The notes under the pieces: generated by a model | The model's input: only the letters and a program-made list of their open reading frames with translations | What the model was told of the DNA's origin: nothing | The model's database searches: none | Translations under genes and position numbers: made by a program | From: an uncultured Prevotellaceae bacterium | Lineage (GTDB): Bacteria > Bacteroidota > Bacteroidia > Bacteroidales > Muribaculaceae | Direction: 5' to 3' | NCBI GenBank assembly: GCA_947169265.1 | Contig: CAMVPC010000018.1 | Coordinates: 1-64,000, forward strand | Length of the DNA stretch: 64,000 bases | Part shown: positions 12,985 through 63,937 of the stretch, one piece after another | How the letters are laid out: the number at the start of each line of letters is the position of its first letter | Position numbering within the stretch: the stretch's first letter is position 1

Positions 12985-13902
12985 ATGCGACAACCTAACG
13001 CGCGCACCATGGTGCGCAATCGTCACGAGAGCATCGCGCGATTCAATATTACCGAAGACAGCACCCTGCTGGCCACGGCAATGACCTTGCTGCGCGACCA
13101 CAAAACCAACAAGGTGAAATCAATGTTGCGGCACAACCAGCTGGCCGTCAACGGCGAGCCTTCGTCGCAATTTGACCGCCCGGTGCGCGCCGGCGACGTG
13201 CTCGAAGTGAATTTCACCCGCTCGTTCGATGTCTTCAGCCATCCCAGCGTGCGCCTGCTCTACAGCGACGACGATATTATGGTGGTGGAGAAACCGGCCG
13301 GCATGCTGGCCACCGGCGACGGACGCGCCAACGTCAAGGAGACCGTGTTCCACATCATGCGTGAGTTTGTGAAGCGACGCAACGACCGCGCCCACGTCTA
13401 TGTGGTCCACCGTCTCGAGCGTGAGGCCTCGGGCGTGATGTTGCTGGCTCGCACCAAGAAAGTGCGCGAGCAATTGGTCACGTCGTGGGGAACGCTCGTG
13501 GGTGAGCGCACTTATGCCGCCGTCGTTGAGGGACTCGTCGATGAGGACAGTGGCCAGGTGAAAGGTTATCTGGCCGAGGACGAGGAAACGCATCTCATCT
13601 ATGCCACCGACGACAAGACGGTGGGCAAGCCTGCCACCACGCCATGGAAGGTGGTGGAACGCGGACGGCGCAACACCTTGCTGGAAATCAGCCTTAAGAA
13701 CGCCTCAAAACACCAAATCCGCGTGCAAATGAGCCACATGGGACACCCCATCAGCGGCGACCGCTCTTACGGCGGCCACGCCTCGCCTTTGCGTCGCCTG
13801 GCCCTGCACTGCCTGCGCCTCACGCTCAACCATCCCACCACGGGCAAGCCCCTCACGTTCACCAGCCCGCTTCCCGAGGGCTTTGAGCGCTTGCTTAAGT
13901 AG
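12985..13902 (+). CDS. RluA-family RNA pseudouridine synthase
   Basis: S4-like N-terminus; 'VVHRLEREASGVMLLARTKKVREQL'; 'KHQIRVQMSHMGHPISGDRSYGG'. Confidence 0.93.
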   Translation: MRQPNARTMVRNRHESIARFNITEDSTLLATAMTLLRDHKTNKVKSMLRHNQLAVNGEPSSQFDRPVRAGDVLEVNFTRSFDVFSHPSVRLLYSDDDIMVVEKPAGMLATGDGRANVKETVFHIMREFVKRRNDRAHVYVVHRLEREASGVMLLARTKKVREQLVTSWGTLVGERTYAAVVEGLVDEDSGQVKGYLAEDEETHLIYATDDKTVGKPATTPWKVVERGRRNTLLEISLKNASKHQIRVQMSHMGHPISGDRSYGGHASPLRRLALHCLRLTLNHPTTGKPLTFTSPLPEGFERLLK

Positions 13903-17660: not shown

Positions 17661-17726
17661 TTTTTGTTCGCGAGTGAAAAACTTCGCATTTCATTTTGTA
17701 TTGCGCTGAGTTTGCGTTAATGTTGC
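17661..17726 (+). repeat. palindromic promoter-bearing repeat, partial copy A1
   Basis: gaaaaacttcgcatttcattttgtattgcgct core shared with A2; TTTG-N19-TAATGTTG. Confidence 0.6.
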
Positions 17727-17738
17727 CTCTTTGAGGCG

Positions 17739-17820
17739 AAATTAGGCTTCACTTCGGCAATAAAAATGAAAAACTTCGCATTTCATTTTGTATTGCGCTC
17801 AGTTTGCACTAATTTTGCAA
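17739..17820 (+). repeat. palindromic promoter-bearing repeat, copy A2
   Basis: aaattaggcttcacttcggcaat...attgcgctcagtttgcactaattttgcaa; ends inverted (aaattag/ctaattt); TTTG 17787-17790, N19, TAATTTTG 17810-17817. Confidence 0.8.
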
Positions 17821-17936: not shown

Positions 17937-19844
<1,908 letters not shown>

Positions 19845-27859: not shown

Positions 27860-28086
27860 ATAATGGCTGTCCACAAAATCTTGCAAAATTACAAAAACCC
27901 CACCACAGCCACAAGCCAATATCAAAAAATGAAAAAATATTTTGCCAAATGAAAATAAAGATTGGTGGTTATATGACCAATCTTGAACGTAACCTATTGC
28001 GAATTCGTTGCGCTTTTAAGGGGTAAGGTTATCCTTTGTCATCTTGTTCAAGACTCATCAGCTCTCAACTTGCGCTTATTATAGAT

Positions 28087-28167
28087 AAATTAGGCGACGT
28101 TTCGGCAATGCAAAACGAAAAAAAACGTTTTTCGTTTTGCATTGCTATCAACTTGCACTAATTTTGC
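28087..28167 (+). repeat. palindromic promoter-bearing repeat, copy B1
   Basis: aaattaggcgacgtttcg...cactaattttgc; perfect 18 bp inverted repeat 28105-28122/28128-28145 in core; TTTG 28136-28139, N19, TAATTTTG 28159-28166. Confidence 0.8.
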
Positions 28168-28180
28168 GTGTAAAATCGCG

Positions 28181-28249
28181 AAATTAGGCGGCACTTCGGC
28201 AAAAACCAAAGTAAACTTTGTTTTTGCGCTCGGTTTGCACTAATTTTGC
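28181..28249 (+). repeat. palindromic promoter-bearing repeat, copy B2
   Basis: aaattaggcggcacttcggcaaaaaccaaagtaaactttgtttttgcgctcggtttgcactaattttgc; TTTG 28217-28220, N20, TAATTTTG 28241-28248. Confidence 0.8.
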
Positions 28250-28302: not shown

Positions 28303-29121
28303 ATGGGATATATCGTTAGCGATAGCAAGAAAATTACCACTAAGCGCATTCGCGAGATGAAGCGCACAGGCGAGAAAATTGCCGTGCTCACCAGTTATGA
28401 CTTTACGATAGCAAGCCTGGTAGAGCAAGGTGGCGTGGACATGATTCATGTGGGCGACAGTGCCTCAAATGTAATGCAGGGCAATGCCACGACCGTCCCC
28501 ATCACGATGGAAGATATGATTGTGTACGGCCGCACCGTGGCGCGCGCGTGCCACCGCGCCATGACGTGCATCGATATGCCTTTCGGCACCTATCAGGGCG
28601 ACCCCTACGAGGCGCAACGCAACGCCGTGAGGCTGATACAACAAACCGGCATCGACAGTGTCAAGGTGGAAGGTGGCGAGGAAATCGCGCCGGCTATCGA
28701 ACTGATCATACGCTCGGGAATCCCCGTTTTCGGCCACTTGGGACTCACTCCGCAGAGTGTGTACCAGTTTGGCACTTTCGCCGTGCGCGCGCAGGAAGAG
28801 GCCGAGGCCCAAAAACTGCTCAACGACGCTAAATTGCTCGAGCAGCTGGGATGTTTCGCCATCGTCCTGGAGAAGATTCCCGCCGCGCTGGCCGCGCGCG
28901 TCACCGCGAGCGTGGGCATTCCCACGGTGGGCATCGGCGCCGGCCCCCACTGCGACGGGCAGGTGCTCGTGGTGCAGGACATGCTGGGCATGAACATGGA
29001 TTTCTGTCCCAGGTTCCTTCGCCGCTACAACAACCTGGGCGAGCAAATCATCGATAGCGTGGGCAACTATGTGAACGATGTGAAGGCCGGCCTTTTCCCC
29101 AACGAGAAAGAACAATACTAA
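28303..29121 (+). CDS. panB: 3-methyl-2-oxobutanoate hydroxymethyltransferase
   Basis: 'EKIAVLTSYDFTIASLVEQGGVDMIHVGDSASNVMQG', 'MPFGTYQ', 'FGHLGLTPQSVYQFG', 'IGAGPHCDGQVLVVQDMLGM'. Confidence 0.96.
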   Translation: MGYIVSDSKKITTKRIREMKRTGEKIAVLTSYDFTIASLVEQGGVDMIHVGDSASNVMQGNATTVPITMEDMIVYGRTVARACHRAMTCIDMPFGTYQGDPYEAQRNAVRLIQQTGIDSVKVEGGEEIAPAIELIIRSGIPVFGHLGLTPQSVYQFGTFAVRAQEEAEAQKLLNDAKLLEQLGCFAIVLEKIPAALAARVTASVGIPTVGIGAGPHCDGQVLVVQDMLGMNMDFCPRFLRRYNNLGEQIIDSVGNYVNDVKAGLFPNEKEQY

Positions 29122-55284: not shown

Positions 55285-56804
55285 ATCGTGATGGTGGCCA
55301 GTCCGCGCTCGATGCGGGCGATAGTTTCATCCTTGCCCAGTAGCTCGGTGATGTCAAACATGTGAGGTCCCTTGCACTCTCCCACGACGGTGAGGCGGAA
55401 GGCGTTCATCACGTTGCCCATGTGGTATTCGTTGTCTTTAATCCAGCCGAGCACCACCTCTTCGGCGTGGGCGCTCGTCATGTCGTCAAGGCCGCGAAGC
55501 ACTTCGATGAGCTGGCGCATGATGGCGGGCGTGTCCTCTTTCCAGCGCTTTTTCACGTCTTTCTCGCTATACTCGGTGGGCGCCACAAAGAAGAAACGGG
55601 TGTGCTCCCAGGCGTCGCCCACAAAGTTGATGCGGCTCTTGATGAGGCCCACGGCGCGTGTGATATATTCGTCGGTGAATCGCGACGGGTCGACATGCTG
55701 CGCCAGCACCGGCTTGAAGAGGGCCGCCAGCCGGGCGTCGTCAAGGTGCATGAGGTACTCGTGGTTGAACCATTTGCCTTTCTCGAAGTCAAACTTGGCG
55801 CCTTTTTTCGAGCAGTGGTCAAACGAGAAGGCCTCGATAAGCTCGTCCATCGTGAACAGCTCCTTGTCGGTGCCGTCGTTCCAGCCCAGCAGGGCCAGGA
55901 AGTTGATGACGGCCTCGGGCAGATACCCTGCCTCGCGATACCCGCGCGACAAGTCGCCGCTGGCCGGGTCGCGCCAGTCGAGGGGAAACACGGGGAAACC
56001 GAGGCGGTCGCCGTCGCGCTTGCTCAGCTTGCCCTTGCCGTCGGGTTTGAGTAGCAGCGGCAGGTGCACAAATTGCGGCATCGAGTCGGCCCAGCCGAGG
56101 GCTTCGTAGAGCAACACGTGCAGGGGCGCGCTGGGCAGCCATTCCTCGCCGCGAATGACATGGCTCACCTCCATGAGGTGGTCGTCGACGATGTTGGCCA
56201 GATGATAGGTGGGCAGGTTGTCGGCACTCTTGTAGAGTACTTTGTCGTCGAGAATCGACGAATTGATGGTGACGCGGCCGCGAATGAGGTCGTCGACCAC
56301 CACGTCGCGGTCAGGCTCGATGAGGAAGCGCACCACATATTTCTCGCCGGCGGCGATGAGCGCGTCAACTTCTTCTTCGCTCATCGTGAGTGAGTTGCGC
56401 ATCATGCCGCGCGTACCGGCGTCGTACTGGAAATTCTTTATCTCGGCGCGCTTGGCCTCCAGTTCGGCCGGCGTGTCGAAGGCGATATAGGCTTTGCCGT
56501 CGGCCAGCAGTTGGTCCACGTAACGGCGATAGATGTCGCGACGCTCGCTCTGCTTGTAGGGACCATAGGCGCCTCCTTGGGCCACGCCCTCGTCAATGCC
56601 TATTCCCAGCCACGCAAGGGCCTCGTTGATATATTCTTCGGCGCCGGGCACGAAGCGGTTGCTGTCGGTGTCCTCAATGCGCAGTATCATGGCGCCATGG
56701 TGCTGGCGCGCGAAAAGGTAGTTATACAGGGCGGTGCGCACGCCGCCTATGTGCAATGGCCCGGTGGGCGATGGTGCGAAACGCACTCTTACAGGTCTTT
56801 CCAT
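55281..56804 (-). CDS. gltX: glutamyl-tRNA synthetase
   Basis: '[28 protein letters not shown]', '[14 protein letters not shown]', '[17 protein letters not shown]'. Confidence 0.97.
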
Positions 56805-57586
56805 TAGTTATGGGGTAAATGATTAGTGGTTTTGTTGTTATCTTCAAAGTGACGCAGTGCCAGCTCGTGGCCGTCCCAGGTGGCGTAAGTGAACTGTGAA
56901 ATCCATTCGCCCAGCACCGTCATCGTGCGGCCGCCGGCGAACTCGTCGTGGTAAGGGACGTGCAGGTGGCCGTAAACGAAGTGACGCACATCGGGGTGAG
57001 CCGCCGCATATTCCACGCTGAACTCGGCCAGGCGCGCCAGGCAGTCGCGGCTCTCGGCGAGCACCTGCCTGATGGTGCGCGTGGTGCGGTTTTGTTTCGA
57101 CCAACCTGTGGCGATGGGAACCGTCCAACGCGGGTGTATCGACGCGTAGAGCCACTGGCAAACACGGCTGTGGAAACACATGCGCGTGAAACGGTACAGT
57201 GGCGCCTGACGGCCCACGTCGTCGCCGTGCGAGAGCAGGAACCGCGTGCCCAGAATGGACATTTGCGTGGCGCCGCGCAGCACCGTTAGGCCCACTTCGT
57301 CGCGCAGGTAATCGAAGAGCCACACGTCGTGGTTGCCCACGATCCACGTGATTTTCACGCCGTTGTCGGCCAGCTCGGCCAGCTTGCCCAGGAAACGCAC
57401 GTGGCCTCGCGGCACCACATAGCGGTACTCGTACCAGTAGTCGAGAATATCGCCCAGCAGGTACAACTCACCCACGTCATCCTTGATGCTGTCGAGGAAA
57501 CGCACCACACGGCGCTCGGTCTCCCGCTTGTCGTCGAGATACCCGGCGCCCAAGTGTAAATCGGATATAAAATAGGCTTTTTTCAC
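56804..57586 (-). CDS. lpxH: UDP-2,3-diacylglucosamine diphosphatase (LpxH-like metallophosphoesterase)
   Basis: '[31 protein letters not shown]', '[15 protein letters not shown]', '[14 protein letters not shown]', 'YGHLHVP'; probable GTG start at 57586 (TTG alternative at 57598). Confidence 0.9.
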
Positions 57587-57593
57587 TTGCGCC

Positions 57594-57675
57594 TGCAAAG
57601 TTAGTGCAAACCGAACACAATGCCAAATTTATTTGAGCATTGTTGAGGTGCGGCCTAACTTGGGCGACAGCCAAC
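57594..57675 (-). repeat. palindromic promoter-bearing repeat, copy C1
   Basis: tgcaaagttagtgcaaaccgaacacaatgccaaatttatttgagcattgttgaggtgcggcctaacttgggcgacagccaac; reverse strand reads TTTG-N20-TAACTTTG toward lpxH. Confidence 0.8.
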
Positions 57676-57763
57676 GTTAGTGCAAACCGAGAGCAATACA
57701 AAATGAAACACGAAGTTTTTCATTTTTATTGCCGAGGTGAAGCCTAACTTGGGCGAAGCCAAC
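57676..57763 (-). repeat. palindromic promoter-bearing repeat, copy C2
   Basis: directly abuts C1; core matches A2 about 40 kb away (reverse complement aataaaaatgaaaaacttcg..tttcattttgtatt). Confidence 0.75.
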
Positions 57764-57802
57764 GTTAGTGCAAACCGAACACAATGCCGCCCGGGCAATT
57801 TT
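57764..57802 (-). repeat. palindromic repeat, truncated copy C3
   Basis: gttagtgcaaaccgaacacaatgcc then diverges. Confidence 0.6.
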
Positions 57803-62456: not shown

Positions 62457-63617
62457 TCACTTGGTGAGAATCATGCGCTTGGTGTCGATTTCCTTGCCGT
62501 CGGCCACGAGGGAGTAGATGTACATGCCGGCGTTGAGGTCGCTGCCGTTGATGGTGACACTGGCCACGCCGCGCTCGGCGACGTTGATGGTGCGCAGCAG
62601 CTGGCCCTGCAGGTCGAAGACGAGGACCTGCGCCGTGAGGACCTCGGCGGGCAAGTCGCAGCGGATGACGGTGGCCGACGTGAAAGGATTGGGCGTGTTC
62701 TGGTACAGACGCGCGCCGGTGGCGAGACCGCCGTTGCCGTTCGGCGCGTTCATCTGCTCGCGCATCCGCTCTATCTGCTCGTCTTTGCTCTTGTTCTCGG
62801 CGCGAAGGGCGTCCACCTCGCCGCCCAACTCGTTGACGGCGTTCACCAGCAGCGGAATCATGCCGATATAATCGACGTACATATAGCCGTCCTTGCCCGT
62901 CTCGACGAGTTCGGGATAAACCTCTTGCACCTCTTGCGCCAGGAAACCGAAGCGTTCGCCGCCCTGTTTTTCCTCTTGGCGCAATTGTTGCCACTCGGCG
63001 CGTTTTTTGGTGATTTTTTCACTCTCGCCGGCGAGCGGCTCGTTGAGCCAGCGCTCGTCGCCGTGGCCGCCCGGGGCGTCGGGCTTGAGGCGGTAGCTCA
63101 CGCCGCGCAGCCTCGCCAGCGACTCGCGCGCGCCGTCGAGCGTTTCCACGTTCTCCTTGAAGCGGCTGTCGCTCGAGATGAACACGCCCGTCGTCTTGAC
63201 GTTGCAGCGGAAATTCATGGCACTGCCCTTGTGGATGTCGTAGTAGAACACGGTATCGGTACCATCCCAGCCACGCGTGTAATAAACGCCGTCGCTGCCG
63301 TGCAGCCACAGCTGGTCGGTGTCAATATATTCCTGCTCCTCTTCATCATATTTCTCCATTTCGCCGAGCATGACGAACTTATACGCTCCGGCGTAAGCGT
63401 CGCCGAACGAAATGCGCGAGCGTGTACCTTGCTGGCCGGGGCCGAACAAGCGCAGCGTGGAAATTGTATCAATCCGGTTGGAAAACGAGCCCATGTGCTC
63501 AATGAGAGAATCGGGATTCTCGCCGATGTCCATGAAGCCGCTACTTTTCACTGCCACCTGCGCCGGCAATGAGATTGTCAGCATTGCCACGGCAATTGAT
63601 AAGATTGCTTTTTTCAT
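62457..63617 (-). CDS. S74 endosialidase-chaperone-type protein with T9SS type-A C-terminal sorting domain
   Basis: 'SSDSRFKENVETLDGARESLARLRGVSYRLK', 'FGFLAQEVQEVYPELV'; C-terminus 'LYQNTPNPFTSATVIRCDLP...VFDLQGQLLRTI...LNAGMYIYSLVADGKEIDTKRMILTK'. Confidence 0.88.
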   Translation of the reverse strand: MKKAILSIAVAMLTISLPAQVAVKSSGFMDIGENPDSLIEHMGSFSNRIDTISTLRLFGPGQQGTRSRISFGDAYAGAYKFVMLGEMEKYDEEEQEYIDTDQLWLHGSDGVYYTRGWDGTDTVFYYDIHKGSAMNFRCNVKTTGVFISSDSRFKENVETLDGARESLARLRGVSYRLKPDAPGGHGDERWLNEPLAGESEKITKKRAEWQQLRQEEKQGGERFGFLAQEVQEVYPELVETGKDGYMYVDYIGMIPLLVNAVNELGGEVDALRAENKSKDEQIERMREQMNAPNGNGGLATGARLYQNTPNPFTSATVIRCDLPAEVLTAQVLVFDLQGQLLRTINVAERGVASVTINGSDLNAGMYIYSLVADGKEIDTKRMILTK

Positions 63618-63677: not shown

Positions 63678-63759
63678 TGCAAAGTTAGTGCAAACCGAAC
63701 ACAATGCCAAATTTATTTGAGCATTGTTGAGGTGCGGCCTAACTTGGGCTACAGCCAAC
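63678..63759 (-). repeat. palindromic promoter-bearing repeat, copy D1
   Basis: 81/82 identical to C1 (single g/t difference in gggc[g/t]acag) about 6.1 kb away, same orientation. Confidence 0.82.
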
Positions 63760-63809
63760 GTTAGTGCAAACCGAACACAATGCCAAATTTATTTGAGCAT
63801 TGCTGGGGT
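63760..63809 (-). repeat. palindromic repeat, truncated copy D2
   Basis: gttagtgcaaaccgaacacaatgccaaatttatttgagcattg directly after D1. Confidence 0.7.
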
Positions 63810-63832
63810 GTGAGGTGTAGCCAGGCAGTTTC

Positions 63833-63937
63833 TGTCGCCCCTAACGGGGCTACTTTGAACGTAATGCTGTGATTACAGGGGTTTCGCGCTGTCGCGCTAC
63901 ACCCCTGCCTACTATCTGCTGTCCCTAGCGGGGCTAC
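63833..63937. repeat. GC-rich intergenic repeat cluster at the window end
   Basis: tgtcgcccctaacggggctac (63833-63853) and tgtccctagcggggctac (63920-63937) flank caggggt-ttcgcgctgtcgcgctac-acccctg (63876-63907). Confidence 0.55.

Follow-up and report, generated by a model that had tools for sequence, protein, structure and literature searches.

Promoter-bearing repeats are already known as a kind. The BrickBuilt MITE of Porphyromonas gingivalis is intergenic, contains tandem repeats and has promoter activity, and its authors liken it to a putative mobile promoter (PMC4596501). The repeat described here is, like BrickBuilt, a strictly intergenic Bacteroidales repeat with tandem repeats and promoters, which are predicted in our units; BrickBuilt differs in being long, in consisting of a leader, 23-nt direct repeats, and a tail, and in having bidirectional promoters tested in E. 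coli (PMC4596501), whereas each of our 65- to 83-nt hairpins amounts to a single one-directional predicted promoter and the family extends over several families of the order. Identity with BrickBuilt was rejected on unit anatomy, which has no 23-nt direct repeats, leader, or tail (PMC4596501). The Correia elements of Neisseria are likewise short, gene-adjacent repeats with strong promoters, but they belong to another phylum, with another sequence and sigma consensus, and the available portion of the source describes for them no arm complementing the −7 box, no placement at that box, and no tandem arrays with broken distal boxes (PMC10969869). REPs and REPINs with RAYT are dispersed imperfect palindromes that are often clustered, as are our units (PMC2817692, PMC3116915, PMC3733652), which differ in that they lack a GTAG/CGTC tag, do not co-occur with RAYT or Y1, and are located on promoters. 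At the ends of IS200/IS605 elements (IS608), the target is recognized by guide pairing beside a hairpin (PMC5934647); the likeness is only an analogy, and no tnpA was found attached to a unit. The invertible promoters of Bacteroidales also combine a promoter with inverted repeats (PMC8748976), but all 32 of our arrays face the gene, with no flipped copy in the assembly, and this candidate was dropped. Rickettsia palindromic elements can lie in frame in open reading frames (ORFs), comparable to promoter-less cores of our family within ORFs, although they differ in sequence and size and are not promoters (PMC10969869). We found no description of the family itself in the literature searched (Muribaculaceae palindromic and Bacteroidales intergenic repeats, with most subscription journals outside the search), and no Rfam family matched any unit at gathering score.

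The window, the whole 64,000-nt stretch of DNA analyzed, comes from a draft assembly of 74 contigs and 2.91 Mb (the host genome), in which BLAST and a covariance model (R1) find about 59 units at 32 sites. Because R1 was built from 30 host units that include those of the window, its matches there (+ strand, 17738-17817, 28086-28166, and 28180-28248; − strand, 57596-57662, 57672-57751, 63680-63746, and 63756-63824) are expected partly by construction. With up to 3 mismatches allowed, GTTTGCACTAATTTTGC gave 10 matches against 0.15 expected, and GCGAAATTAGGCnnCACTTCGGC gave 2 against 0.00. A reading made from the sequence only had placed units at four loci of the window, all of which were confirmed by sequence matches and R1, and the TTTG/TAnnTTTG positions that it quoted (28136/28159, 28217/28241, 17787/17810, and 57624-57627/57596-57603) are correct. 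Its interspersed palindrome stands, while its unit of about 70 to 88 bp gives way to units of 65 to 83 nt arranged in tandem:

17675..17728, + strand: 5′-truncated distal unit; right box TTAATGTTG, broken
17738..17817, + strand: gene-proximal unit; TTTG 17787-17790, N19, TAATTTTG 17810-17817; R1 99 bits
starting near 17937, + strand: next co-oriented gene after the unit at 17738..17817
28086..28166, + strand: distal unit of the panB array; left end GATAAATTAGG; R1 82 bits
28136-28139 and 28159-28166, + strand: promoter boxes TTTG and TAATTTTG of the distal panB unit at 28086..28166
28180..28248, + strand: gene-proximal unit of the panB array; R1 80.5 bits
28217-28220 and 28241-28248, + strand: promoter boxes TTTG and TAATTTTG, N20 apart, of the unit at 28180..28248
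28303..29121, + strand: panB, the downstream gene; orthologues have filled and empty promoters
about 56804-57586, − strand: lpxH-like gene, target of the unit at 57596..57662
57596..57662, − strand: gene-proximal unit; TTTG 57624-57627, N20, TAACTTTG 57596-57603
57672..57751, − strand: distal unit, hairpin class different from that of 57596..57662; box TAACGTTG, broken
57759..57790, − strand: remnant right arm of a third unit; GTTTGCACTAACGTTGG
62457-63617, − strand: ORF targeted by the unit at 63680..63746
63680..63746, − strand: gene-proximal unit of the same class as 57596-57662; TAACTTTG 63680-63687
63756..63824, − strand: distal unit with decayed left arm; box TAACGTTG

Read toward the gene, a unit runs AAATTAGGC-nnC-NNN-TC-RR-CAA, through a variable inner hairpin, to TTG-Y-G-YTC-NNN-TTGC-A-CTAATTTTG. 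The arms covary around a conserved bulged hairpin core, with 80 doubly changed cells in A1 versus 21.8 in shuffles, 51 versus 15.1 for the core alone (promoter-less copies included), and, in alignments fitted to the model, 213 versus 75.5 in other species of the group and 58 versus 13.7 in other families. The unpaired features (a bulged A, a TC/TC internal loop, and a bulged G) are conserved as well. The left (5′) arm complements the local −7 box, and the pairing takes in the two free bases of TAnnTTTG (AATTA/TAATT, AGTTA/TAACT, AGATA/TATCT, AGGTA/TACCT). The inverted ends first noticed belong to a longer, imperfect hairpin that covaries. With regard to the terminal inverted repeats that define a MITE, the arms are inverted but vary from locus to locus in their outer part. 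Integron attC sites have a conserved GTTRRRY/RYYYAAC core in the outer stem; we considered them for the GTTAGGC and bulges of the units and set them aside because the outer stem is too variable (AATTAG, GTTAC, GATAG, GGTAG). We regard the repeat, its structure, and its placement at predicted promoters as established at the level of sequence.

The consensus of the Bacteroides primary sigma factor places TAnnTTTG at −7 and TTTG near −33 (PMC7366714). By this sequence criterion, every gene-proximal unit of the host genome ends in a perfect TAnnTTTG (32/32), and 31 of the 32 have TTTG 19 to 20 nt upstream of it. A co-oriented gene start lies 4 to 119 nt past the proximal unit at all 32 host sites, which bears out the earlier suggestion that the promoter points at the next gene, and no host array is opposed; the target genes, named by eye from translations, include panB, panC, lpxH, eno, glyS, obgE, uvrA, nusB, pheS, hflX, ychF, and an aminotransferase. 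Among 79 loci of other species, which were chosen by the promoter arm and scored with crude ORF calling, arrays clear of ORFs were co-oriented in 42 cases versus 6 opposed, and the unit-gene distance was typically 20 to 40 nt. We infer that the units act as predicted promoters of the adjoining genes, with transcription presumably proceeding from the unit. The earlier statement that every copy aligned over its right half contains TTTG followed by TAnnTTTG or a one-mismatch version needs correcting in that the −7 box is dependably intact in gene-proximal units only. Of the distal tandem units, 3 of 27 keep TAnnTTTG (Fisher p = 1.4e-13 versus proximal) and 25 of 27 have TTTG at N19 or N20. Most distal boxes carry a T-to-G change (TAnnGTTG), even where the two units hardly differ otherwise, so the change is not random decay; it reflects either selection against surplus starts or some feature of the unit-unit junction. 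Some distal boxes are still intact in other families. Intact proximal and broken distal boxes fit retention under a presumed selection for the boxes, in line with the proposal that units were kept where they drive a gene.

We compared the regions upstream of panB at 30 loci (29 congeners) and of eight genes with host arrays in up to 14 congeners each, all comparisons being between species; no unit insertion between strains was seen. Empty orthologous sites have an ordinary promoter in the same place, and at filled sites the units lie exactly at that −7 box. The cleanest case of empty versus filled sites is the gene divergent from panB (G061/G036/G006 versus G032/G068/G079). Here TTATTGCTAATTTTG is followed by the leader in the empty relatives, and the filled ones read TTATTGCTAAATTTC|GATAAATAAGG...TTTGCA|CTAATTTTGGCG, or likewise with two units: the flank is homologous up to TTATTGCTAATTTTG, an insertion of about one unit length follows, and the box copy that was displaced has decayed. 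At aspC, CTAATTTTGCAAAACGAAACTAAT is common to the host and G027, with an exact match of the −7 box and leader start, and units lie upstream in the host only; the left flank is rearranged and aligns poorly between the two. At panC, a single unit stands in G011 where G010, G001, and G066 show an ordinary promoter. The leader common to them picks up again at TTTGCA, and the −7 boxes of filled and empty relatives differ in their two free bases (TAATTTTG versus TATCTTTG), so that re-use of the target and a unit-borne −7 box look alike. Arrays are present at panB, panC, and obgE in the host as well as in G027, the relative nearest to it, with different hairpin classes, and other arrays are found at glyS in G012 and G003. 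The promoter half alone survives at eno in both the host and G027, and at eno, pheS, and hflX this half is kept while the left arm has decayed. Empty orthologues at the panB-divergent gene, panC, and aspC, together with filled and empty promoters that differ between species, support the earlier idea of a dispersed element with a ready-made promoter, and takeover of promoters by inserted units is well supported by these comparisons.

In G003, the glyS promoter is occupied by a tandem hairpin repeat of another kind (GATAAAATTTTCGCGTTCGACAATAGAAGTAAACTTC...), and other repeat families may thus use the same niche.

We think it likely that the units of this dispersed, structured family inserted at the −7 box of promoters that were already there. 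The 5′ arm of each 65- to 83-nt imperfect hairpin complements the −7 box, and the 3′ arm provides TTTG at −33 and runs into TAnnTTTG at −7; the adjoining gene would then be transcribed from the unit. New units would arrive beside the functional −7 box, and older units left upstream would lose theirs and erode. We infer that the units are actively mobile, and an enzyme acting on single-stranded hairpins seems the likeliest mechanism, though at somewhat less than even confidence. The junctions fit both insertion of a unit-borne −7 box beside the existing one and insertion at the box with its duplication; the CTAATTTTG-like sequence on both sides of inserted units may be a duplication or a site carried by the unit. 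The model that fits best has units inserting beside the −7 box, perhaps with help from arm-target pairing. The locus-specific arm may act as a guide, in the manner of IS608 (PMC5934647), or may have been copied from the flank afterward by template switching. We speculate, and hold this version as doubtful, that a minimal hairpin element inserts next to −7 boxes by pairing of its 5′ arm, perhaps while the box is single-stranded in the open complex, with its own −33 and −7 boxes replacing the promoter rather than destroying it and with arm subfamilies targeting −7 variants.

If the units were immobile, promoter architecture would be inherited with the genes and arrays would grow by tandem duplication, homogenized by gene conversion and template switching. 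Hairpins favor template switching, units within one array are often near-identical whereas arrays differ from each other, and six of eight comparable sites are common to the host and G027, all of which suits such a history; relatives with empty orthologous sites and ordinary promoters there, sister species with different hairpin classes at one site, and a patchy distribution across the order nevertheless make it improbable. Strong covariation and conserved bulges would also suit a cis-regulatory structure bound by a regulator as ssDNA or RNA, with the arrays marking a regulon for which the structure is conserved. We give this a similarly low probability, since the start site predicted from its own promoter leaves the unit upstream and so outside that transcript, the genes targeted are housekeeping genes with no relation to each other, eno, pheS, and hflX retain the promoter half without an intact left arm, and promoter-less cores exist. 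Ordinary promoters of the host genome also read TTTGCAnTAAyTTTGC, as would be expected of a chance likeness between ordinary promoters with AT-rich hairpins, but matches far above shuffles and the strong covariation refute this reading almost completely.

Mobilization as a REP family by a RAYT (HUH Y1) transposase was already disfavored and is less probable than either immobile units or a regulatory hairpin. One array stands directly before a gene (L008:1686-2843, contig C32) for a 386-aa RAYT-like protein, which has an HFH (HUH-type) motif and matches NF047646 at E = 1.6e-6, below the curated cut-off, and the geometry of guide, hairpin, and cleavage site would resemble IS200/IS605 ends (cf. 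PMC5934647). Close orthologues of the C32 gene, however, occur in 11 of 60 congeners with a strong unit near only one of these loci, and none of the four other RAYT-like genes of the host genome, which also has three IS200-type genes, has a unit nearby. RAYT matches at E<=1e-10 are absent from the repeat-rich G012, G013, G029, G014, and G001, and Y1_Tnp is absent or scarce in the repeat-rich G012, G013, and G029 and abundant in the repeat-less G004, G016, and G031. RAYT/REP was therefore rejected as a general partner, because RAYT or Y1 content does not track repeat number. No GTAG or CGTC tag was found at the hairpin foot in the unit sequences, no transposase or recombinase was tied to the repeat, and no autonomous partner with the same ends was seen in the loci examined; the label of MITE or REP proposed by the sequence-only reading is accordingly not upheld.

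If insertion at −7 boxes is correct, housekeeping promoters (panB, panC, glyS, obgE, uvrA, nusB, lpxH, and others) would have given way to a dispersed element time and again across several Bacteroidales families, promoter turnover via mobile parts would be directly observable, and a naturally exchanged promoter family from gut bacteria would become available. The −7-matching arm suggests a way, open to testing, in which such an element, though small, might insert harmlessly into essential promoters.

The search of genomes beyond the host, as the sequence-only reading had proposed, gave DNA matches in 30 of the 36 congeners listed and in 32 of 61 genomes overall, the latter counting the host and a single genome from another family. 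Across the order, R1 detects the repeat in 15 of 198 genomes, representing 12 genera; with at most 23 copies scored per genome, the copy counts are lower bounds, and several genomes come close to 23. Copies in other families are tandem units with TATCTTTG or TATATTTG boxes and, in most loci, gene starts nearby, the targets named by eye being truA-, mnmA-, and mutS2-like. The patchy distribution is compatible with repeated loss and with transfer. Related contigs picked up by an exact pattern come mostly from MAGs of rumen and gut Muribaculaceae, Prevotellaceae, or unplaced Bacteroidales, one being Ca. Sodaliphilus. There was no match in plasmids and no exact match in viral contigs; five weak matches lie in unannotated faecal phage records.

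A core-only model (R2) finds further copies on C35, C45, C34, and a few other contigs, in both orientations and often inside ORFs. In 15 promoter-less cores (11 from the host genome and 4 from other species), TAnnTTTG occurs in 0 and TTTG at N19-20 in 5, and the outer stems are again mostly locus-specific palindromes. At C35:14377 a core holds another core within it (versus the paralogue at 13378). Cores are dense on the low-GC contigs L249 (C35), L487 (C45), and L492 (C34); the GC content of core-bearing contigs is 0.45 to 0.48 versus 0.57 for the window, and we give little weight to these contigs, which may be mobile DNA, possibly prophage, or contamination. An integron-like cassette array on C35 was considered and dropped, as phage-like genes, an LRR protein, and Vsr are among its ORFs.

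At window positions 63834-63853 and 63918-63937 (− strand), GTAGCCCCGTTAGGGGCGAC, a GTAG-tagged hairpin resembling classical REPs, adjoins an array; it is a second repeat family unrelated to the promoter units, and its exact core was not found near the RAYT-like genes examined. Just beyond the end of the window, C18:64139-64173 is an isolated left-arm fragment (GCCCAAGTTAGGCCGCACCTCAA) with no right arm. Two near-identical arrays at contig ends (C65:98-304 and C21:62292-62498 of the host genome, G000) are probably an assembly duplicate. Arrays at three different genes (C1:82716, C17:67790, and C27:28126) have the unusual junction CTATGTTGCCG in common, suggesting that units carry their left junction along with them or move as dimers.
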